39,756 bases of DNA from Acaryochloris sp. IP29b_bin.176. Its GTDB lineage: Bacteria > Cyanobacteriota > Cyanobacteriia > Thermosynechococcales > Thermosynechococcaceae. The position numbers and the translations under genes were made by a program. Under the pieces are notes generated by a model. That model worked only from the letters and a program-made list of their open reading frames with translations, was not told where the DNA came from and made no database searches. The stretch covers positions 1-39,756 of the forward strand of contig JANQPU010000166.1 of NCBI GenBank assembly GCA_028285315.1, read 5' to 3'. The number at the start of each line of letters is the position of its first letter. The stretch's first letter is position 1. This document shows positions 5,476 through 29,503 of this stretch, in pieces.

Positions 5476-6645
5476 TTAGGATCTCCTAGAAAACGTCTTA
5501 GGATTGAGTATTCCTACTTTCAGTCGGGTTTGACGCTTTTTATTCTTGCGCATAATTGTAAGAGTCAGCTGATCACCGGGAGTGACCGACTGCAACAGTT
5601 GCTGAAGCTGCTCTGTATTGTCAATTTGAGTTTTACCAATCTGCACAATCACATCCCCGGACTTTAACTGAGCGACTTCTGCTGGGGAATCGGACAATAC
5701 ATCCACTACTAGCACCCCCTTATCTTGCTCAACTTGCAAATCTGCTTCTTCTTGCAACAACTCCTTGGTCTGTTCCGAAATACTGACCATACGGATGCCG
5801 AGATAGGGGTGGGCGACTTGTCCCTCTTTTAATAATTGTTTGCTAATCCGAGCTGCAATCTTGACGGGAATAGCAAAGCCCAACCCTTGTGCTCTCACGC
5901 CTCGCTCTTGTGACTCGCGAATAATAGCGGTATTAATCCCAATCACCTCACCTTTGAGATTGAGCAAAGGACCACCCGAATTTCCAGGATTAATCGCGGC
6001 ATCGGTTTGGATAAAGTTGACGCGCTGGTCTGGGGCACCGAGCTGAGAACTGGACCGATCTGTGGCACTAATAATCCCCATTGTTACCGTATTGTTCAGT
6101 CCCAAAGGGTTGCCGATGGCAATCGCCCAATCTCCCGCTTGTAGGGTATCTGAGTCGCCCAAGGTGAGGGCCGGTAAAGATTCTTGGGCCTCTATTTTGA
6201 TTACGGCGATATCGGTCAGTGGATCGGCCCCTTCCACGGTGCCAGGAAACTGCTGACCATCTTTGAGCACAACTGTGACCTCATCTGCATCTTCAACCAC
6301 ATGGGCATTGGTTAAAACCAAACCTTTTTCGTCAAAGATAAAGCCTGATCCAGTGCCCCGCTCCAGGGGAGTATCAGGGCCATCAAACGATCTGGGCAAT
6401 GAACTTTTCGAACTGCGCGATGCATTAATCCGCACAACGGAGGGACCAACCTGATCTACCATTTTGACAATCAGATTGGAACTCACTTGTGAGCGATTGG
6501 CAATTTCAGTGACCGGGATTTCGGGTGTACTGTCGGCTTTATCAGCAGTATCTGACGATCGATTAAACCAACTTTGACACCCCGTTTGGAGCAGCGCACT
6601 TCCGACTAAAAGAGAAAAAACTAGATGCTGGAGGGATCGCTGCAT
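5476..6645 (-). CDS. HtrA/Deg-type serine protease, predicted lipoprotein
   Basis: A periplasmic or membrane-attached trypsin-like protease of the HhoA/HhoB/HtrA group, which removes damaged proteins in light and heat stress. Counting from ATG 6645 (389 residues), a signal peptide ends in a lipobox with Cys23 (LLQTGC). The catalytic triad is H115 (TNAHVV), D145 (TDIAVI) and S223 (NPGNSGGP). One PDZ domain follows at about 281-378. GTG 6666 would add seven residues before the signal peptide, so I prefer the ATG. The three cyanobacterial paralogues cannot be told apart safely by eye, so no symbol is given. A 68-base region separates it from the divergent LysM/LytM gene. rarA follows closely downstream and may be co-transcribed. 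Confidence 0.93.
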   Translation of the reverse strand: MQRSLQHLVFSLLVGSALLQTGCQSWFNRSSDTADKADSTPEIPVTEIANRSQVSSNLIVKMVDQVGPSVVRINASRSSKSSLPRSFDGPDTPLERGTGSGFIFDEKGLVLTNAHVVEDADEVTVVLKDGQQFPGTVEGADPLTDIAVIKIEAQESLPALTLGDSDTLQAGDWAIAIGNPLGLNNTVTMGIISATDRSSSQLGAPDQRVNFIQTDAAINPGNSGGPLLNLKGEVIGINTAIIRESQERGVRAQGLGFAIPVKIAARISKQLLKEGQVAHPYLGIRMVSISEQTKELLQEEADLQVEQDKGVLVVDVLSDSPAEVAQLKSGDVIVQIGKTQIDNTEQLQQLLQSVTPGDQLTLTIMRKNKKRQTRLKVGILNPKTFSRRS

Positions 6646-6713
6646 TATCGTAAAACTAGTTCGCACTATTGTGATTTTTTACTCCACTCTAGCCTGGGAG
6701 CAATTTAGGTATT

Positions 6714-7643
6714 ATGGCCAGACTCAACATTTGCCATCTTCTTGCAATCATACCTTGGATATTGGGTTGCAGCAGTTTAGGCGGCAACCTGCTGGCTCAG
6801 GCCCAATCCTCCTCTTCTCCTGGGCCATCCTCCTCACGGTTATGTCCAGCTTCCGTGTTGTCTCGATTGGTTCGACATCAAGTCAAGCCCGGAGAAACCT
6901 TGGCCAGCATTGCCCAACAGTATGGCCTGTCCTCAGCCACCCTCATGGGGATGAATCCTCAACTCCGGTCAGGGCGGGTAAGGGTGGGAATGAACTTAGT
7001 GGTGCCGCCCTATAACGGCATTTTGGTTGCAATCCCTGCAGGACAAACCTTGAAGACAGTTGCCAAAGCCTATCGTATTAGTCCTGATGTCTTGTTTGAG
7101 ATCAATGGCTGTCAGTTATCACCAAAGGTGGCCTTTGTTCCCGGAATCAATTGGTCTCCCAGCGTAAACTCTCAACCCACGGGAATTGCACCGCTACGTT
7201 CTGTGGATAAAACGTTCCAATCGCCTCGACCGGTGCATGGACGCGATCGCTATCCGTTACCTCAGCCTGCTCCTATTTTGGGCACCTATGGCTGGCGCAT
7301 TAATCCAGACACCCGCAAAATGCAGTTTTACAGTGGGGTTGATTTGCAAGTAGCCTCTGGGACGCCTGTTTACGCTGTCAGCTCCGGCACGATTGTCTTT
7401 GCTGGCAAACGCAGTGCATCCGGTCAGCTCGTCATTATCCGCCATACTCAAGGCAGGCAAACTCGGTATGGTCGCTTAAAGAATTTACAAGTCAAGGTAG
7501 GTCAACAGGTTCAACCGGGCACGCTCCTCGGTGAAGTTGCACCTGCGACCCAGGCTTATCTCAGATTTGAAGTACGTTACCGTTCCAGCTTGGGCTGGGT
7601 CGCTCATGATCCCCAACCGTATTTGCAATCACTGCGCCAGTGA
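6714..7643 (+). CDS. LysM + degenerate LytM (M23) lipoprotein, NlpD-like
   Basis: A cell-envelope protein of 309 residues. Order: signal peptide with possible lipobox ILGC (Cys19), a Ser/Pro-rich stretch, LysM about 54-98 (HQVKPGETLASIAQQYGLS), a second weaker LysM about 103-146, then a LytM/M23 domain about 188-303. The M23 zinc and catalytic residues are nearly all gone. The HxxxD motif reads YSGVD (Y206, only D210 kept), the YAHL histidine is R254 (YGRL), and the HxH motif is Y282-L-R284 (YLRFEV). It should therefore not cleave peptidoglycan. Lipobox + LysM + inactive LytM is the layout of NlpD, which activates cell-division amidases, so I infer such a role. It is divergent from the htrA-type gene and converges on the GGDEF-EAL gene three bases away. 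Confidence 0.88.
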   Translation: MARLNICHLLAIIPWILGCSSLGGNLLAQAQSSSSPGPSSSRLCPASVLSRLVRHQVKPGETLASIAQQYGLSSATLMGMNPQLRSGRVRVGMNLVVPPYNGILVAIPAGQTLKTVAKAYRISPDVLFEINGCQLSPKVAFVPGINWSPSVNSQPTGIAPLRSVDKTFQSPRPVHGRDRYPLPQPAPILGTYGWRINPDTRKMQFYSGVDLQVASGTPVYAVSSGTIVFAGKRSASGQLVIIRHTQGRQTRYGRLKNLQVKVGQQVQPGTLLGEVAPATQAYLRFEVRYRSSLGWVAHDPQPYLQSLRQ

Positions 7644-17409: not shown

Positions 17410-18927
17410 GTGCAGGGAAACTCAGCTAGGGAGAGAATCTTGGAGGCAACTGCAAGCGTGAATTCGTGGGTCTTGCCAACGATTAGCGATGGATTTATGG
17501 AGAGTGAACCTGAGTTAGATTGGTGGCCTGCGGCACCATCGAACGATGGTGAACCTGAATGGCATGCAGCAATTGCCACGATCCTATCGATGTTGCTTGT
17601 CTCCCCAGGGAAGATCATCAAACAGTGTACTGAGTCTCAGCCAGCACTTCAAGGTTTGATCCTGACGGGTCCAATCCCTCTGTTAAGGGATCTTGGATTA
17701 TTTGCTAATTTCCATACTTGGGCTTTGACACCTACTCACGGAACAGCGTTACGATTACCCCCTTGTGATCCTACTGGTTCTGAGTCCATTATTCAGACTG
17801 CAAATACGATTCCTTTACTGCCGGCAGATCCACAAACGACAGAGCGTTTTTGTTTAGTGCTCACTTCCTCATTTTGTTGGGTGGCTGTTTTAAAACCCTT
17901 ACCCAATCAAGGGTCACTGTTTCAGTTTTCGTTTGTACCGAAGACGGTCCAACTTGTCATTCAGAATGTGCGATCGCGGATTCAGCTTACCCGTCCTCAT
18001 CAATTGGAACACTTTGATGTGCTATTGCAACAGTGGCCAGCGGTTGAACCGCACTATCGCATTCCCCTTCAATTTAGCCGCCAATTGCTTCAGAATTATC
18101 GACATGTTTCGGAGCTCTTGCCGGACCCTTCCCAACGGTCATCTAGTCAGAAAGAGATTAAGGCGACTGCACCATCGAACATGAGCCAAGATCCTCCAGC
18201 AGCCCACTCTTCTCAAAAAGGTCCAGAAATTGATTTATTGAAAGCCCTCGCCCATGAAGTTCGCACCCCCCTCACCACCATTCAAACCTTCACTCAACTA
18301 TTGCTGAAACGATCCGATTTACCCGCTGAAGTGTTGAAACGGCTGGAAGCAATTCGGCGGGAATGCCATGATCAAATTGATCGCTTTAGCTTAATCTTCA
18401 GGGCTATGGAGTTAACCACTGCCGAAGCTACGCCTGCAGCCCATCTAACATCTATCTCTGTGCAGGAGGTCCTGCAGGCTAATTTATCCCGTTGGCAAAA
18501 ACAGGTGGATCGGCGTAGCCTTTCGTTTCACCTAGAGATGCCTCAACAACTACCTGCGATCGCAATTAGCGATCCCAACATGTTAGAACAGGTCTTAACA
18601 GGCTTAATCGAGCAACTGAGCCATCGTCTACCCATGGGAAGTCAAATGCGGCTGCAAATTGCTTTAGCAGGCAATCAACTCAAATTAGAACTGCGATCTG
18701 ATCAGACCATGACCCATCCACAATCAGCAGCAGACTTACCGATGCTCAAAGCAATCGGTGATTTATTGATGCTGCAACCCGAGACGGGCAACTTGAGTTT
18801 GAGCTTACCGGTCACCAAGCATCTCTTCGAGATTTTGGGCGGAAAACTCATCGTCCGCCAGCATCAACACCAAGGTGAAGTCTTGACAATCTTTTTACCG
18901 TTAGGGACTGATAGTACTGCATACTAG
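17410..18927 (+). CDS. Histidine-kinase-like protein with decayed ATPase domain
   Basis: About 505 residues from GTG 17410; ATG 17497 is the alternative, but SWVLPTISDGF before it looks conserved. Residues 1-235 form an N-terminal sensor-like region of unknown type without membrane helices. A HisKA dimerisation helix follows, with H282 in LAHEVRTPLTT. The ATPase domain (about 350-498) is recognisable by DPNMLEQVL and by LPVTKHLFEILGGKL. It has lost the N-box Asn (LIEQLSH), the G1 box DxGxG, and most of the G2 glycines (TGNLSLSLP). It probably cannot bind ATP in the normal way. It may be a phosphotransfer or allosteric pseudokinase, or be phosphorylated by another kinase. No response regulator is adjacent. 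Confidence 0.82.
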   Translation: MQGNSARERILEATASVNSWVLPTISDGFMESEPELDWWPAAPSNDGEPEWHAAIATILSMLLVSPGKIIKQCTESQPALQGLILTGPIPLLRDLGLFANFHTWALTPTHGTALRLPPCDPTGSESIIQTANTIPLLPADPQTTERFCLVLTSSFCWVAVLKPLPNQGSLFQFSFVPKTVQLVIQNVRSRIQLTRPHQLEHFDVLLQQWPAVEPHYRIPLQFSRQLLQNYRHVSELLPDPSQRSSSQKEIKATAPSNMSQDPPAAHSSQKGPEIDLLKALAHEVRTPLTTIQTFTQLLLKRSDLPAEVLKRLEAIRRECHDQIDRFSLIFRAMELTTAEATPAAHLTSISVQEVLQANLSRWQKQVDRRSLSFHLEMPQQLPAIAISDPNMLEQVLTGLIEQLSHRLPMGSQMRLQIALAGNQLKLELRSDQTMTHPQSAADLPMLKAIGDLLMLQPETGNLSLSLPVTKHLFEILGGKLIVRQHQHQGEVLTIFLPLGTDSTAY

Positions 18928-20436: not shown

Positions 20437-22107
20437 CTATCCTTGACCGATTGCCATAAATACTTGCTTTAGCTCATTCAAGGTAGAGACGGCAGGGCCA
20501 TCTTGTTCTCCTTCTGCTCCCATCTGCCCTTTCAGGGCATCTAAAACATCTCGAGTGGGTTGTAGTAAGTTCTCAGAGGTTTTAATCTTGCCCCATAATT
20601 CAGCTAGAGTCGTTTTTTGATTTTCCAGGTCTTGCTCTTGCTGTTGTAAGGTATTTCGCTTGTTTTCTTGATCTATGGAGGTTGATTCTACAGTATTCCG
20701 AGTGACCTGTAAGGAAGCTTCTAGATCACTTAACTCATGGTTTAGCTTGTCTAGTGCCTGCTGATGCTTTGCCTGCTCGGCTTTTGCTAGTTCAAGGACA
20801 GGGGCAAGATCCAACGTCGCTGTTTGATGAAATTTGTTCTGTTGCGATCGCTTCCGCTGATACAAAACATCTTGATGAAAATACAGAATGGCTTCGCGTT
20901 CTTGTAATGTTTTGCGCTGTCCTTCCAAGGTTTCATCGAGCAAACGAAAATGCTGGCGTTCATCCTCCAATTCGCCCGTTAAGCTCAATTGATCATACTC
21001 ACTTGCATTTTGAATTTTAGCTTCTAGCTCTTCAATAGCTTGCTGTTGGTATTTCAGCTCTTCTTCTTGGTCATTCACAAAACTCGACAGCTTCACTAAT
21101 TCTTTATTGAGCTTATCTACGGTTCCTTCTAGCTCTTCAATGGGCATATCCCGTAGCTTGTGAACGTCTGCCTGATCACCTGCACCTCCCTGCATTTGAC
21201 TGAGATTCTGGTAGAGAGTTGTTTGTGCTTGTAACTGCTCACTCAACCAATTTCTCTGTTCTGATTTCAAGGTGAATGACTGTTCTTGCACCTTGAGTTC
21301 TAATTGAGTTTGAGCGAGAGAATCTTGGGTGTGCTGCCATTCTTGCCAAGCCGCTTGTAACTCCGATTGCTGTTGATCAAGTATCGCCTGCTGTTGTTGA
21401 GCATGTGCTTGATCCTGATCTAGCGTTCGCCATGCTTCATTTAACTGATGGTGTTGTTGGCTGATATTGGCTAGAAGGTGATCTGGATTGGTTGCCCCCC
21501 CAGCAATCGCTTGATCTAGCTGATCTAACAATTGCTCAATCTGCCGCACTTGTTCATCCGACAGACCTGCCTGTGCCTCATTCTGAGCATTCTGCAAACG
21601 TCCCCAGCCTTCCTCCAATTGCTGGCGATCTTGCTCCATCTGCTCTTTTAATTGGAGAATTTGGGCACGAGTGGCCTCAAACTCTTGGCGTTGCTGCTCG
21701 ATTTTTTGGGATTCCGCTTCCCATTCTTGTATTTCCTCAGCTCGGGCTTCCATATCCACTTCACGCCGAGTTAATTCTTGGCTTTGGTAGATTAAGGATT
21801 GCTTCCACCCCTCAATTTCTTCTTCCTGCGTTTTGAATTTCTCTCGCATACGAGAAAAACTCTTTAAGATGCCAACCAGCTGTCTCGTCGCATCTTGAAT
21901 GCTCTTCAGTTGCTGATTACCATCCATCTCGACCAACACAAGAACACCTGCGTTATAGTCATTCGCAGCATCAGCTTGGAGCAGTTCTTCGCCAGAAATA
22001 GGGCTCCAATTGTGCTCAGATTGTTTTTGGGCTAAAAGCTTTAGCTCTGTCTTGGCACCCATAAAGCCAGTTTTCTTGTGCACTTCGGCGAGATACAGCA
22101 CACTCAT
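20437..22107 (-). CDS. hmpF: HmpF pilus-motility coiled-coil protein
   Basis: HmpF is required for type IV pilus motility and phototaxis in filamentous and unicellular cyanobacteria; it localises to cell poles and is thought to activate the pilus motor with the Hmp chemosensory system. The 556-residue protein has a conserved N-terminal globular part (MSVLYLAEVHKKTGF, then GAKTELKLLA and LVLVEMDGNQQ, to about residue 90). After that comes an almost uninterrupted Gln/Glu-rich coiled coil to about 520, and a short tail (LNELKQVFMAIGQG). No membrane segment is present. It is transcribed away from the hmp operon, sharing the 548-base region upstream, which supports the assignment. Confidence 0.9.
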   Translation of the reverse strand: MSVLYLAEVHKKTGFMGAKTELKLLAQKQSEHNWSPISGEELLQADAANDYNAGVLVLVEMDGNQQLKSIQDATRQLVGILKSFSRMREKFKTQEEEIEGWKQSLIYQSQELTRREVDMEARAEEIQEWEAESQKIEQQRQEFEATRAQILQLKEQMEQDRQQLEEGWGRLQNAQNEAQAGLSDEQVRQIEQLLDQLDQAIAGGATNPDHLLANISQQHHQLNEAWRTLDQDQAHAQQQQAILDQQQSELQAAWQEWQHTQDSLAQTQLELKVQEQSFTLKSEQRNWLSEQLQAQTTLYQNLSQMQGGAGDQADVHKLRDMPIEELEGTVDKLNKELVKLSSFVNDQEEELKYQQQAIEELEAKIQNASEYDQLSLTGELEDERQHFRLLDETLEGQRKTLQEREAILYFHQDVLYQRKRSQQNKFHQTATLDLAPVLELAKAEQAKHQQALDKLNHELSDLEASLQVTRNTVESTSIDQENKRNTLQQQEQDLENQKTTLAELWGKIKTSENLLQPTRDVLDALKGQMGAEGEQDGPAVSTLNELKQVFMAIGQG

Positions 22108-23749: not shown

Positions 23750-26281
23750 ATGTCATTAAGTACTCGATACACTCAGGACTATCAACAAGCAGTTAGTGAC
23801 TATATGAAGGGACACTATCAAGAAGCTGCAGAAACGACAGACCAGTTAGTCGAAGAGTATCCTGATGACCCAAATCTGCGATTACTCCGAGGGCATATCT
23901 ATAGTTGTCTTCAGGAGTATGAAATCGCTAACCAACAATATAAGTCTGTACTTGAGTTGACCAATGATCCTGAACTGCTTGATTGTGCTCGCAACAGTTT
24001 GGCAGATTCAACTCAGTACTTGGAATCTGGCTATAGCTATTCTGAGTCGATGCCCCCAGTTGATAGCAACAGTGCTGCTTTGACCATGACCAATGGGAAT
24101 GAGTTGAAATTTAGTGAAGCAATAGATATCCGAACCGCGCCCTCACTTCAGACAAGTTCTGGCAGTGAGACTTCATCTGCTAATGACAATCCGTTTGCAG
24201 TTGAATCAAACCCCTTTGATGATTACGTATCCGCTCCTATGGTTGCTGAGAATACAAACAGCCAGCCATTGGGCTCGGATAGTTTTGCTGATGGAGAAGA
24301 CGATACATTACTCATGCACAAGAACCATTCAACATCCGACTCAGAAAGCTCAGATACTCGGCCGTCCGATATTTTCAGCGATTCAGAAAGCGATGCTATC
24401 CAAAGCGAATTTACTGATATTAGCGGTGCAGAAAATACCATCCAGTCTTCGTCTGCGGGCGAAGACTCTTGGGAAGGGCCCTTTGATCTAGCTGGAGAGC
24501 ATACAACAGAATCTACAGACTTAGATTTCTTGGATTCAGTGGATCAAACTGAATTTCCCATGTCTGGTATTGATTTATCAGAAGAGCTATCTATGGAAGG
24601 ATTAGAGGGAGGTACGGGAATAGGTAGCTTTGATCCAGCTACAGAATTTGACCTAGAGGATCCAAGTTTGTTGAATTTGGCTGAGGATGAACAGGACTTG
24701 ATCGGGGATACGGGACTGATCAATGTAGCCGAGAACACCCAAGCTCTAGCTATGGATGATTTGCCTCCATCTTCTGACCTGTCAATGTCGCCCCAGTCAG
24801 GATTTTTAGGGGATTCCCAGGATGGGAGAGCACTCTTTTCTGATGGTCGAGGGTCTGCACTGTCTAAACGACCAGGCGGTGTTCTGGCACCTTTTACCAA
24901 TGCCTCTTTGCAGCAAAAGCAAATTATCATGTCGACAACCGCGGGGGTTGTTTCAGCTTTAGCTGTTGTCGGGGCTGGCCAAATCAGCTCTCAATCTCTA
25001 GCCACAACGGGAGCAGGAGCACTTGCAGCAGGTTTAGCGGGGGGGGCAACAACTTTAGCACTGGGTCAAATTATGACTCGGCAAATCAAGTCTTCCACCA
25101 ATGACTTGCAAACTCAATTGACCGCTGTAGCTCAAGGCGATTGGAGTGTCAGGGCAACTGAATTTTCTAAAGATGAATTTGGCCAGTTAGCCACCAGTTT
25201 CAACCAAATGACTCGCTTTATTGAGTCAACGACTGCCGAAGTTCAACGCAAAGCAGAAGAACAAGAAAAGGCCAAAGAAGACCTACAGCGACAAGTGATT
25301 CGTTTGCTGGATGACGTAGAAGGAGCTGCTCGCGGGGACCTAACAGTTCAAGCAGAAGTAACAGCGGATATCTTAGGAGCTGTTGCCGATTCCTTTAACC
25401 TCACCATTTATAACCTACAAAAGATCGTTAAGCAGGTCAAAGTGGCTGCTCAAGAAGTGAACAAAGGCGCGGCTGAGAATGAAGAATTTGCTCGCGGCTT
25501 ATCTTCTGATGCGTTGCGGCAAGCTGAAGAACTGGCAGTGTCGCTGAATTCTGTCCAAATGATGACCTCCTCTATTCAACAGGTCGCTGAAAGTGCTCGA
25601 TCGGCAGACCAGGTTGCTCAAAAGGCAACAGAAGCAGCCTTAAAGGGTGGAGAATCGGTAGAAAGTACCGTGGCTGGCATTCTCCAAATTCGAGAAACAG
25701 TGGCTGAAAGTACCCGGAAGGTGAAGCGTCTGGCCGAATCTTCCCAAGAAATTTCCAAAATTGTTGGCTTGATTTCGCAAATTGCCTCGCGCACGAACCT
25801 ACTTGCCCTGAACGCTAGTATTGAGGCAGCTCGTGCGGGTGAATCTGGCCGTGGTTTTGCAGTTGTTGCTGATGAAGTTCGTCAACTAGCTGATCGGGCA
25901 GCCAAATCATCCAAAGAAATTGAGCAGATTGTTTTGCAAATTCAAGGTGAAACAAGCTCTGTAATGATGGCAATGGAAGAAGGAACCCAACAAGTTATCG
26001 AAGGAACCCAACGGGCTGAACAAGCCAAACGTTCGTTGGATGACATCATTCAAGTTTCATCCCAAATTAATCAGTTAGTAGGCTCAATTACCAAAGCAAC
26101 TGCTGAGCAAACAGAAACATCACGCTATGTGTCTCAAGTGATGCAGTCCGTCGAGTTAACTGCCCAAGAAACTTCACAAGAAGCTCAACGAGTATCTGAC
26201 TCCCTAAGAAATATGGTGAGTGTTGCCAGTGAACTTCAATCTTCTGTGGAGCGCTTCAGAGTTGAGGGCACTGAATTCTAG
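23750..26281 (+). CDS. hmpD: Methyl-accepting chemotaxis protein (PilJ-like)
   Basis: Receptor of the pilus chemosensory system, 843 residues. Order: two TPR-like repeats at about 1-90 ([18 protein letters not shown], then [22 protein letters not shown]), a long acidic, Ser-rich disordered linker at about 95-380, and a hydrophobic hairpin at about 395-440 (Ala/Gly-rich, two short helices with almost no loop). Next come HAMP domains at about 440-590 and the signalling coiled coil at about 590-840, with the tip [20 protein letters not shown]. Because the sensory part is TPR plus linker and not a periplasmic domain, it probably senses from inside, for example through protein partners. A good GGCAGGAG site precedes the ATG. 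Confidence 0.93.
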
Positions 26282-26350
26282 GGCTTTGTAGCCTAATTTC
26301 TAAATCATCAATTTGACTTATCTTTTTACAGAATCCTAGGGGAGATGGTA

Positions 26351-29300
26351 ATGCAGCCAGAACAACAGCGGATTATGGTCTACTTTATTGAGGAAGCTAA
26401 AGAGCACCTCAATACAATCGAGCATGGTTTGCTGAATTTGCAGACCGTTGTTGCCGATCCTGAATCTTTGAATGAGGTTTTTCGAGCAGCTCACTCAGTG
26501 AAAGGAGGCGCTGCAATGCTGGGCATCCACAGCATGCAGCACATTTCCCATCGTTTGGAAGATTACTTCAAAGTTTTAAAAGAACATCAACTCCCTGTTG
26601 ATCAGACGCTTGAGTCTTTGCTATTTAAGAGTTTTGACGCTCTCCACGTTCTTACGGAAGAATTAGAGCAGGCTTTTAGCTTGTCGGATGAGCTGTCAGA
26701 AAAGACTCTCTCAGAGATAGGACCTGTCTTTTCTCAGATCAATAGTCATTTAGTCAAGATAGCAGGTCCAGAAGTTGATCTGAGTTCAATCTTAAGTGAC
26801 AGTCCTGCACCGACTCCCCAAAAAGTAACTGCTGCCAAACCTGAAGTGCTGGATGCACGATGCCTTGAAATTTTCCAAACCGATGTTCTACAGCATTTAC
26901 GAGAAATACTAGGGTTATTCAAACAGCCTGATACATCAGAAAATCGCCAAGCGTTAGCAAACATCTGTCAAGAGCTTGCTCAAGTAGGACAAGAGTTTCA
27001 ACTGAAAGGTTGGTCTGAACTTTTGGAGGTGGCAGGTGTGGTTGTTGCCCATCCTGATAATTCCTTTGCGACGCTTGCAGGTGTTATCGTTCCCAACATT
27101 AAAGAAGCAAGAGATTTAGTGTTAGCTCAACGCGCAGCAGATGTGAGGCCAATAGCTGCCTTGCTTGATTTAATGCCTGCGCTAGACTTCGGTGATTTGG
27201 GAGATACTAGTTCAACGGAGTCTGACGCTGAGGATTGGTTAGGCTTATTTGCTGAAGAAGATACCAAACCTTCAACTGATAGGGATAAGAGTGATTCATT
27301 TTTGGATGACTTGTTTAACGAACCCGCGTTAAACTTTGACGCAAACACTAATTCCGAATTCACTGCACCTGTCGCTGCTGTAGAAGATGATTTTACCAAC
27401 TTAGACTCCCTGTTGATAGAAGCGCCAAGGGATAAAGAAACTCCCTCTGCAGCGGCGAAACCAGATGATGACTTTAATGATCTAGAAAAACTTTTAGAAG
27501 AGCCTAGCCGTCCAGCCAAGGCCAAAGCTAAATCGTCACAGAAGCGAACAACCACTAAGCCAGCGCGACGAGGTAGTGCCATTTCACAGACCATGAAGGT
27601 ACCTGTGAAGCAATTGGATAATCTAGGGAACCTAATTGGTGAGTTGGTGGTTAGCCGTAACTCCCTGGAAGATAGCCAAAATCGTTTACGACAGTTTTTG
27701 GATAATTTGTTGTTGCAGGTCCAACAATTGAATGATTTAGGACGCAATATGGAAGATCTATATGAGCGCTCCTTGTTGGAAAATTCATTGTTGAGTAGTC
27801 GCCAACAGCAAGTGGTTACAGGCGGCAATGACAACTTTGGAAATCATTCTACTGGCCAGCAATTTGATGCCCTAGAAATGGATAGTTTCACAGGGTTTCA
27901 TACCTTATCCCAAGAGATGATTGAGCGCATTGTTCGTGTGCGTGAAGCTGCATCAGATATTGAGTTTATTGTTGGGGGAACAGAACAAGTGACGCGGATG
28001 TTCCGTCAAATCACGACTCAAGTGCAGGAAGGACTCACAAAATCACGGATGGTGCCCTTTTCCCAAGTGGCAGAACGATTGCCCAGGGCAGTCCGTGATA
28101 TTTCGATGAAGTGTGGTAAAAAAGCCAGACTGGAATTAGAAGGTCGTGACACTTTAATCGATAAAAGCATTTTAGAGCGGTTATATGATCCACTAACTCA
28201 TCTTGTAAACAATGCTCTGTTTCATGGCATTGAAGCTCCTGATATCCGCCAATCTTTGGGTAAAGCAGAAGAAGGCATCATCAAACTACGGGCTTTTTAT
28301 CAAGGGAATCAGGCCGTTATTTCTATCACGGATGATGGTGCTGGGATTGATGTTGAGCGAGTTAAAGCAAAGGCCGTCCAGAAAAATTTATTGACCCAAG
28401 ATGAGGCCGACAACCTATCCCGTCAAGAAGCCTATGCCTTGTTATTTAAGTCAGGTTTTTCGACCCAAGATCAGGCCAATGATTTGGCTGGTCGAGGGGT
28501 GGGGATGGATGTTGTTCGCAACAGTATCCATGAGATTCGAGGGGTTATCAATACAGATTCAGGTATTGGCAAGGGAACTACGTTTACGATTCGACTTCCC
28601 CTGACCCTGAGTATTACAAAAGCTTTGTGCTGTATTGATCATTTCGCTCAAATTGCGTTTCCAATTGATGGGGTGCAGGATGTAATTGATATTCCCAAGG
28701 AACAATTACAGCAGGATGCAGATGGTCAGATACTGGTGACATGGCAAGATAAACAGCTGCCCTGCAAACCCTTAGGAGATCTGCTGGTCTATAGTCGAAG
28801 ATTTAAGCGCAACACATCCTATAGCACTAGTAATACCAAGGACGATGGCATGGCATCGGTTGTGATCTTGCGGAGTGCAGACGATCTGGTAGCCATCGAA
28901 GTTGAGCAGGTTTTGGCTGAGCAAGAAATTGTAATTAAACAGTTAGCTGGACCTGTCCCCAAACCCATGGGCATTGCTGGGGTCACTGTCCTAGGGGATG
29001 GCGGCATTATGGCAATTGCTGATGTGATGGAATTGGTCGATCTGTGCTTGGATCGCTTAGAGGTGAACAGTAACCTCTGGAAGAGTATTCTTGAGAACAC
29101 AGAAGTAGAAGAAGATACCGATCCGATGGTGCTAATTGTTGATGACTCGATCACGGTTCGAGAACTGTTGTCTATGACCTTCAATAAGGTGGGGTATCGG
29201 GTGGAACAAGCCCGTGACGGCCAGGAAGCTTGGGAAAAACTCCGCTCAGGATTACCCTGTGATTTAGTTTTCTGTGATGTGGAAATGCCTCGTATGGATG

Positions 29301-29503
29301 GGTTAGAGCTGCTGTCTCGGTTACAACAGGATGATGATCTGCAGGATTTACCCGTAGCGATGTTGACTTCCAGAGGGGCAGCTCGACATAAACAAATGGC
29401 CACAGAGCTAGGGGCAAAAGGATATTTCACGAAGCCCTACCTGGAAGAAGTTTTGTTGGAAGCGGCTCAACGAATGTTGAATGGGGAAGTTTTAGTCAAA
29501 TAA
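26351..29503 (+). CDS. hmpE: CheA-type histidine kinase with receiver (PilL-like)
   Basis: The kinase of the pilus chemosensory pathway, about 1050 residues. The start is ATG 26351, six bases after GGGGAG; the in-frame ATG at 26345 touches that site. Domains: Hpt at about 1-115 with H48 (RAAHSVKGGAAML), a second Hpt-like bundle at about 165-275 without a histidine, an acidic linker, a dimerisation helix, and the ATPase with intact N-box (HLVNNALFHGIE), G1 (DDGAGI) and G2 (GRGVGMDVV). A CheW-like domain follows, then a receiver at about 925-1045 with acceptor Asp in VFCDVEMPRMDG. It is last in the operon. No terminator is visible in the 79 bases before the helicase gene. Confidence 0.95.
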   Translation: MQPEQQRIMVYFIEEAKEHLNTIEHGLLNLQTVVADPESLNEVFRAAHSVKGGAAMLGIHSMQHISHRLEDYFKVLKEHQLPVDQTLESLLFKSFDALHVLTEELEQAFSLSDELSEKTLSEIGPVFSQINSHLVKIAGPEVDLSSILSDSPAPTPQKVTAAKPEVLDARCLEIFQTDVLQHLREILGLFKQPDTSENRQALANICQELAQVGQEFQLKGWSELLEVAGVVVAHPDNSFATLAGVIVPNIKEARDLVLAQRAADVRPIAALLDLMPALDFGDLGDTSSTESDAEDWLGLFAEEDTKPSTDRDKSDSFLDDLFNEPALNFDANTNSEFTAPVAAVEDDFTNLDSLLIEAPRDKETPSAAAKPDDDFNDLEKLLEEPSRPAKAKAKSSQKRTTTKPARRGSAISQTMKVPVKQLDNLGNLIGELVVSRNSLEDSQNRLRQFLDNLLLQVQQLNDLGRNMEDLYERSLLENSLLSSRQQQVVTGGNDNFGNHSTGQQFDALEMDSFTGFHTLSQEMIERIVRVREAASDIEFIVGGTEQVTRMFRQITTQVQEGLTKSRMVPFSQVAERLPRAVRDISMKCGKKARLELEGRDTLIDKSILERLYDPLTHLVNNALFHGIEAPDIRQSLGKAEEGIIKLRAFYQGNQAVISITDDGAGIDVERVKAKAVQKNLLTQDEADNLSRQEAYALLFKSGFSTQDQANDLAGRGVGMDVVRNSIHEIRGVINTDSGIGKGTTFTIRLPLTLSITKALCCIDHFAQIAFPIDGVQDVIDIPKEQLQQDADGQILVTWQDKQLPCKPLGDLLVYSRRFKRNTSYSTSNTKDDGMASVVILRSADDLVAIEVEQVLAEQEIVIKQLAGPVPKPMGIAGVTVLGDGGIMAIADVMELVDLCLDRLEVNSNLWKSILENTEVEEDTDPMVLIVDDSITVRELLSMTFNKVGYRVEQARDGQEAWEKLRSGLPCDLVFCDVEMPRMDGLELLSRLQQDDDLQDLPVAMLTSRGAARHKQMATELGAKGYFTKPYLEEVLLEAAQRMLNGEVLVK

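Follow-up and report, generated by a model that had tools for sequence, protein, structure and literature searches.

LytM proteins that lack an active site and steer other wall enzymes are best understood in Proteobacteria. Degenerate LytM regulators are presented as a known kind in the available text of a review (PMC9662197), and one of them, DipM, is described in the available part of PMC10336132 as a protein with LysM repeats and an inactive LytM domain, in which the groove around the degenerate site binds several autolysins and is required for this binding. Among cyanobacteria, the LytM factor Alr3353 of Anabaena PCC 7120 (760 aa according to Table 1 of PMC12421839) has been reported to interact with AmiC1 and to regulate it, and the DipM of S. 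elongatus has been described as hydrolysing sacculi in a zymogram and as sitting at the division site. An earlier note on the locus described here had called an amidase activator of this kind poorly described in cyanobacteria; in view of these two reports the statement was too strong.

Domain structure of the protein and state of its peptidase site

The gene analysed lies in a stretch of 39,756 nucleotides from Acaryochloris sp. IP29b_bin.176 (the window, meaning the whole stretch), which starts with psbD. The open reading frame at 6714-7643 was confirmed as real, and the protein combines LysM and M23 domains in Pfam. The features referred to below are these:

5476..6666, minus strand: divergent Deg/HtrA (HhoA/HhoB/HtrA-type) serine protease with PDZ (Pfam Trypsin_2 and PDZ)
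6667..6713, no strand: short region between the divergent starts (sequence)
6714..7643, plus strand: coding sequence of the LysM-LysM-LytM protein, 309 aa, stop included (open reading frame and translation)
6714..6806, plus strand: signal peptide, residues 1-31, with a putative end (sequence)
6768-6770, plus strand: Cys19 of the lipobox, not conserved (position 19 compared in orthologs)
6843..6845, plus strand: Cys44, conserved in the alignment of 198 sequences
6876..7007, plus strand: LysM 1, residues 55-98 (Pfam PF01476, 55.7 bits)
7014..7154, plus strand: LysM 2-like repeat, residues 101-147, with the family motif LFExNGC (hhalign and model)
7110-7112, plus strand: Cys133, conserved together with Cys44
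7251..7631, plus strand: LytM/M23 domain, residues 180-306 (Pfam PF01551, 80.6 bits; VIA-align)
7326-7583, plus strand: Pfam M23 core, residues 205-290 (Peptidase_M23)
7329..7331, plus strand: Tyr206, replacing the first zinc His (alignments)
7341-7343, plus strand: Asp210, kept (alignments)
7473..7475, plus strand: Arg254, replacing the first catalytic His (alignments)
7557..7565, plus strand: Tyr282-Leu-Arg284, replacing the HxH motif (alignments)

The LysM domain named in the earlier note was recovered by Pfam as LysM 1. Pfam gave no match to a second LysM-like repeat at about residues 101-147; the presence of this repeat is supported by a profile comparison with LysM 1 (hhalign, 95.7%, E 9e-9) and by the predicted model, in which LysM 1 and residues 102-143 both form a strand-helix-helix-strand unit. 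The second repeat does not figure in the earlier note. Cys44 and Cys133 are invariant in 72 of 72 aligned orthologs, and a disulfide joining them around the LysM pair is possible. The sequence W-I-L-G-C, previously read as a lipobox, is present in the window protein but is not a feature of the family: the residues aligned to Cys19 in five relatives of the same genus are S, S, A, I and F, and a lipobox-like motif before Cys44 occurs in 4 of 198 orthologs (window protein counted), while 179 of them have an N-terminal hydrophobic stretch. A non-lipid signal peptide (LLAQAQS) appears as likely as a lipobox.

The match to Peptidase_M23 is far beyond chance (E 9.6e-23, with a Pfam cut-off of 28.7 bits). 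In alignments with intact M23 domains, Y206, D210, R254, Y282 and R284 occupy the five site positions where the latter have H, D, H, H and H, and the motifs HxxxD, H and HxH of active M23 enzymes become Y...D, R and YxR. Four of the five metal or catalytic positions are changed and Asp210 alone remains. The Tyr, Arg, Tyr and Arg reported before at the zinc and catalytic His positions are thus confirmed, but a zinc site described as erased still retains its Asp ligand. What also stands of the NlpD-like architecture proposed for this protein is a secreted LysM protein with a LytM domain devoid of its catalytic site, an arrangement common to DipM and NlpD which therefore makes a non-hydrolytic role probable; the lipobox is not conserved.

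The AlphaFold2 model, run on a 72-row alignment of the window and loci proteins, has a mean pLDDT of 84.2 (the ten-residue blocks from 181 onward are all at least 85, and the signal region is low) and holds a complete LytM fold. Its top matches in VIA-align were the LytM domain of DipM (Z 19.4, rmsd 2.9, 137 residues), the active enzyme StM23 (Z 19.1, rmsd 2.0, 124 residues) and EnvC (Z 18.6, rmsd 2.2, 126 residues). These are effectively tied, and the predicted fold is equally near to regulators and to enzymes. Of the structural comparison suggested earlier, the part with EnvC shows a likeness in the LytM fold, but DipM and StM23 match just as well.

Spread of the family and history of the site

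The closest named relatives are Acaryochloris records with 66-78% identity. Orthologs were found in 250 of 388 genomes of the class, with one match each (E<=1e-40), in 13 of 29 genomes of the window's order (with a clear score gap), in 36 of 38 genomes of one further family and in 6 of 7 genomes of the same genus, that of the window included; none was found in the same-genus genome G002 (3.0 Mb, 87% complete). A literature search, judged mostly by titles and the beginnings of abstracts, returned no description of this cyanobacterial family, and within the same scope neither the mixed state of its active site nor its pairing with Deg/HtrA was described.

For the alignment, 252 loci were reduced to 198 unique sequences, drawn from the better-scoring of the listed class matches, one family and the 80 best named loci, with a profile built from the window's own order. 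Among these 198 sequences, whose frequencies are not an unbiased census, the intact site (HDHHH) is present in 59, a site with His254 changed to Gln (HDQHH) in 74 and 45 other patterns in the remaining 65; no His is left at any of the four sites in 33. The 59 intact members count against a purely regulatory family. One relative from the window's own order (L028, genome G012) carries HDQHH, an intermediate state with the zinc ligands present and the first catalytic His alone gone. Residues Cys44, Cys133, Asn81, Glu129, His244 and Arg251 are kept in essentially all 198 sequences, and H244, R251, Y252, R288 and G294-A297 are invariant in the 72 aligned orthologs, in which the five site positions vary. 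These positions are of about average variability among the columns of the domain rather than the fastest; the point is their freedom to vary at all.

A tree was built without the five site columns (a quick tree with many weak forks; 197 rows, the fragment L029 left out). The full site is missing in 138 of the 197 rows and the zinc triad in 62. By parsimony the state of the full site changes 10 times and that of the zinc triad 12 times, and four changes in each case are required by supported branches; on a reduced tree of 165 rows, without the three long branches and without the L257-L286 family (32 further rows in all), the numbers were 11 and 9, with 6 and 5 forced. With regain forbidden and the root placed at an intact leaf, there were 17 losses of the full site and 13 of the zinc triad. 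Parsimony does not separate gain from loss, and the direction comes from the improbability of regaining precise site residues; because of this, the site was probably lost several times independently within the family. In the clade of the window protein, which has a support of 99, the zinc triad is gone from 10 of 10 rows, with different replacements (Y/F/S at 206 and R/G/Q/Y/H at 254). A second eroded clade of 16 rows, separate on the tree (L183 and the L216-L247 group, for example L216, L243 and L245), mostly shows NANFF or NANYF at the five site positions.

These patterns bear on whether the window protein could still be an enzyme, with an altered site (Asp210 together with Tyr/Arg) or another metal and a residual endopeptidase or carboxypeptidase activity. 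The relatives with an intact site would fit such an enzyme, as would a structure that matches active StM23 and DipM equally well, but a clade in which every row lacks the zinc triad and the replacing residues differ does not suggest that a new active site has arisen, and we regard residual activity as very unlikely.

The six same-genus genes all have open reading frames. For the LytM domain dN/dS could be computed in 9 of 15 pairs, the remainder being too diverged at synonymous sites, and ranged over 0.040-0.141; for the LysM region 13 of 15 pairs gave 0.049-0.121. These ratios are rough, given that many dS values exceed 1. By this measure the LytM domain without its site appears clearly maintained by purifying selection, and the low values indicate that the domain is kept for a reason. 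The idea of a gene on its way to loss and kept by chance, to which the eroded site and the missing ortholog in G002 could point, is contradicted by dN/dS well below 1 in both domains and by the orthologs in the other genomes of the genus; we find it hardly credible.

Fourteen M23 domains were found in the window's own genome. By motif, seven have the standard site and six have E-Y-A-Y-D at the first motif; the window protein is the only one of the 14 in which all four His are gone. The six (L007, L010, L011, L012, L013 and L014, all outside the window) read M-E-Y-A-Y-D instead of H-x3-D and keep the other His, and may represent an expanded M23 subfamily in which glutamate replaces the first zinc His. 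Another protein of this genome, L002 (564 aa), joins a LysM-like repeat to an intact M23 site and is by its architecture a better candidate than the window protein for the counterpart of the cyanobacterial DipM or Alr3353.

Amidases, the Deg/HtrA neighbour and the possible role

The specific proposal made before for this protein was an NlpD-type activator of amidases. With the NlpD profile of NCBIfam, whose cut-off is 311 bits, the protein scored 24.7 bits, less than with the profiles of DipM, MepM, ActS and EnvC; the two DipM profiles themselves gave 76.3 and 53.2 bits against cut-offs of 900 and 740. The groove residues of EnvC named in the available part of PMC10336132 are Q315, E317, K321, R340, E357 and R405. 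Their counterparts in the window protein are N, M, S, T, R and R, so that one of six is kept (R405, our R288), in one MAFFT alignment of eight sequences in which E. coli NlpD keeps three (K321, R340 and R405).

The amidases of these organisms were also informative. Three Amidase_3 domains were found in the window's own genome (87% complete) and nine in three related genomes (98-100% complete), and none of the three or of the nine has the regulatory insert. All twelve span 173-174 model positions in 169-173 residues; a pattern check for the insert covered 6 of the 12 proteins, and the result rests on the profile spans and the alignment. Two of the three domains of the window's genome match from end to end the structure 5emi, which we take to be Nostoc AmiC2, and the third (L017) likewise aligns without an insert. 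In the alignment, E. coli AmiC has 42 extra residues at this position, the place that in AmiA holds the blocking helix and the EnvC-binding helix (PMC10268282, in the text available).

A classical activator of the NlpD/EnvC type would act in cell separation by taking the interaction helix of an amidase into its groove and pulling off the blocking helix. The combination of LysM with an inactive LytM domain, the structural match to EnvC, the conserved R288 and the report that another LytM factor regulates AmiC1 in Anabaena all agree with such a role for the window protein. But this mechanism would have no target among the amidases found, five of the six groove residues are changed and the NlpD profile score is far too low, which makes the reading improbable and disfavoured. 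What survives of the earlier proposal is the probable non-hydrolytic role. The missing insert lowers the case for an NlpD and not that for a protein that steers a wall enzyme, which still stands because DipM binds several autolysins and Alr3353 has been reported to regulate AmiC1.

The reading we prefer, to which we give about an even chance, is that the window protein is a periplasmic pseudopeptidase, anchored to the wall, which docks another wall enzyme and modulates it much as DipM does. The protein would be secreted to the periplasm, where its two LysM repeats, judging from the domain, would anchor it to peptidoglycan. The zinc-free LytM groove would then dock a partner wall-remodelling enzyme, as precedent and conservation suggest, and docking would set where or how strongly the partner works; gene order hints that the level of the protein may be set together with that of the Deg/HtrA protease. 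The LytM fold, the absent metal site, the low dN/dS, the residues that stay invariant while the site positions vary, the wide conservation, the repeated changes of the site on the tree and the precedent of DipM support this pseudopeptidase; the loss of the equivalents of EnvC K321, R340 and E357, and a model structurally as close to active StM23 as to DipM, count against it. Our confidence in any named partner is low. Since the amidases found have no blocking helix, helix removal of the EnvC and NlpD kind is probably not how the partner is activated; a lytic transglycosylase would be a better fit, as would an AmiC2-like amidase that is bound differently. Overall, the conserved job is probably the steering of other wall enzymes and not cutting.

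No wall-hydrolase gene adjoins the LysM-LytM gene, a further point against the pseudopeptidase reading. Its upstream neighbour, the divergent Deg/HtrA protease, gave 415.8 bits with NCBIfam NF041521, just below the cut-off of 450; a Cys after LLQTG in this protease could be a lipobox. The two starts are 47 bp apart as listed, or 68 bp when counted from the first ATG of the protease, at 6645. An alignment of this divergent region from six loci of the genus has 194 columns with a mean column identity of 80%, and no conserved promoter of sigma-70 type was found in this short region. Upstream sequence of 900 nt or more was available for 118 unique orthologs (80 of the 198 had less and were left out), and in 70 of these 118 a Deg/HtrA homolog lies upstream, always divergent; the link is present in 61 of the best 80 named loci. 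The convergent EAL-domain gene was found with the LysM-LytM gene in 3 of the best 80 named loci, all Acaryochloris.

Such an arrangement could mean that the two proteins work together, the LysM-LytM protein being a wall-bound adaptor, sensor or substrate of Deg/HtrA and the pair controlling wall enzymes by proteolysis. Along with the frequency of the link, cyanobacterial Deg mutants show effects on wall and surface, and the co-expression of hhoB is with functions of the periplasm, probably those concerning peptidoglycan (both in the available text of PMC4877387). Yet divergent neighbours may share regulation and nothing more, and the link is missing in 48 of the 118, including all 28 examined sequences of the further family (L257-L286) and L024, L027 and L030 of the window's own order. 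The linked proteases have their best match in two different paralogs of the window's genome (39 and 32 of 71), and therefore we do not call them one ortholog group. On balance, control through proteolysis seems to us rather unlikely. In raw counts the Deg/HtrA link was seen in 8 of 44 sequences with an intact site, 32 of 35 with HDQHH and 30 of 39 with other patterns, which by themselves suggest a tie between site loss and the Deg/HtrA neighbour. We do not claim such a tie, as supported branches held 2 independent pairs (6 over all branches; sign test p = 1).

Elsewhere in the window, chemotaxis-type genes at 23750-29503 encode a signalling protein of the MCP type and a CheA-like protein of large size with Hpt, kinase and receiver parts, and two long open reading frames (505 and 556 aa, at 17410-18927 and 20437-22107) have no Pfam match at E 1e-12.

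Returning to the pseudopeptidase, a wider picture can be offered tentatively, and we lean slightly away from it as a whole: that of a single-copy cyanobacterial wall-binding family which dropped its peptidase site several times independently but held on to two cysteines, its LysM motifs and a portion of the LytM frame. Its function would have been non-catalytic from an early stage, the peptidase would be optional and the head-to-head Deg/HtrA would be the second half of a wall quality-control pair.

Comparison with described LytM regulators

EnvC activates its target through a helix that is absent from the amidases found here, and the LysM-LytM protein is a concrete candidate for the control of wall cutting where cyanobacterial amidases have no built-in lock. 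A family whose sites range from intact through half-lost to fully lost is also a natural experiment; comparing its members would show on what surface the non-catalytic function depends and by which route a peptidase turns into a regulator.

Among the described proteins, E. coli NlpD resembles the window protein in its signal sequence, LysM and LytM with an altered site (N, D, H, R and H in the alignment), but the family of the window protein has no conserved lipobox and no equivalents of K321 and R340, and the amidases found are without the insert. E. coli EnvC shares the degenerate LytM fold and R405, with five of the six groove residues different and a coiled coil (PMC10268282, in the text available) in place of LysM repeats. 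Alr3353 is likewise a cyanobacterial LytM protein linked to peptidoglycan and to AmiC1, but identity with it was rejected on length (760 against 309 aa). The DipM of S. elongatus, set beside our protein by published description, combines LysM and LytM in a cyanobacterium, but is hydrolytic and placed at the division site. The DipM of C. crescentus has two LysM tandems whereas the window protein has two LysM-like repeats in 309 aa, and differs also in that our family includes members with an intact site and scores far below the DipM cut-offs. Both are secreted proteins with LysM repeats and a degenerate LytM domain, and DipM heads the structural matches in a tie with StM23 and EnvC and is the best NCBIfam profile for the window protein.
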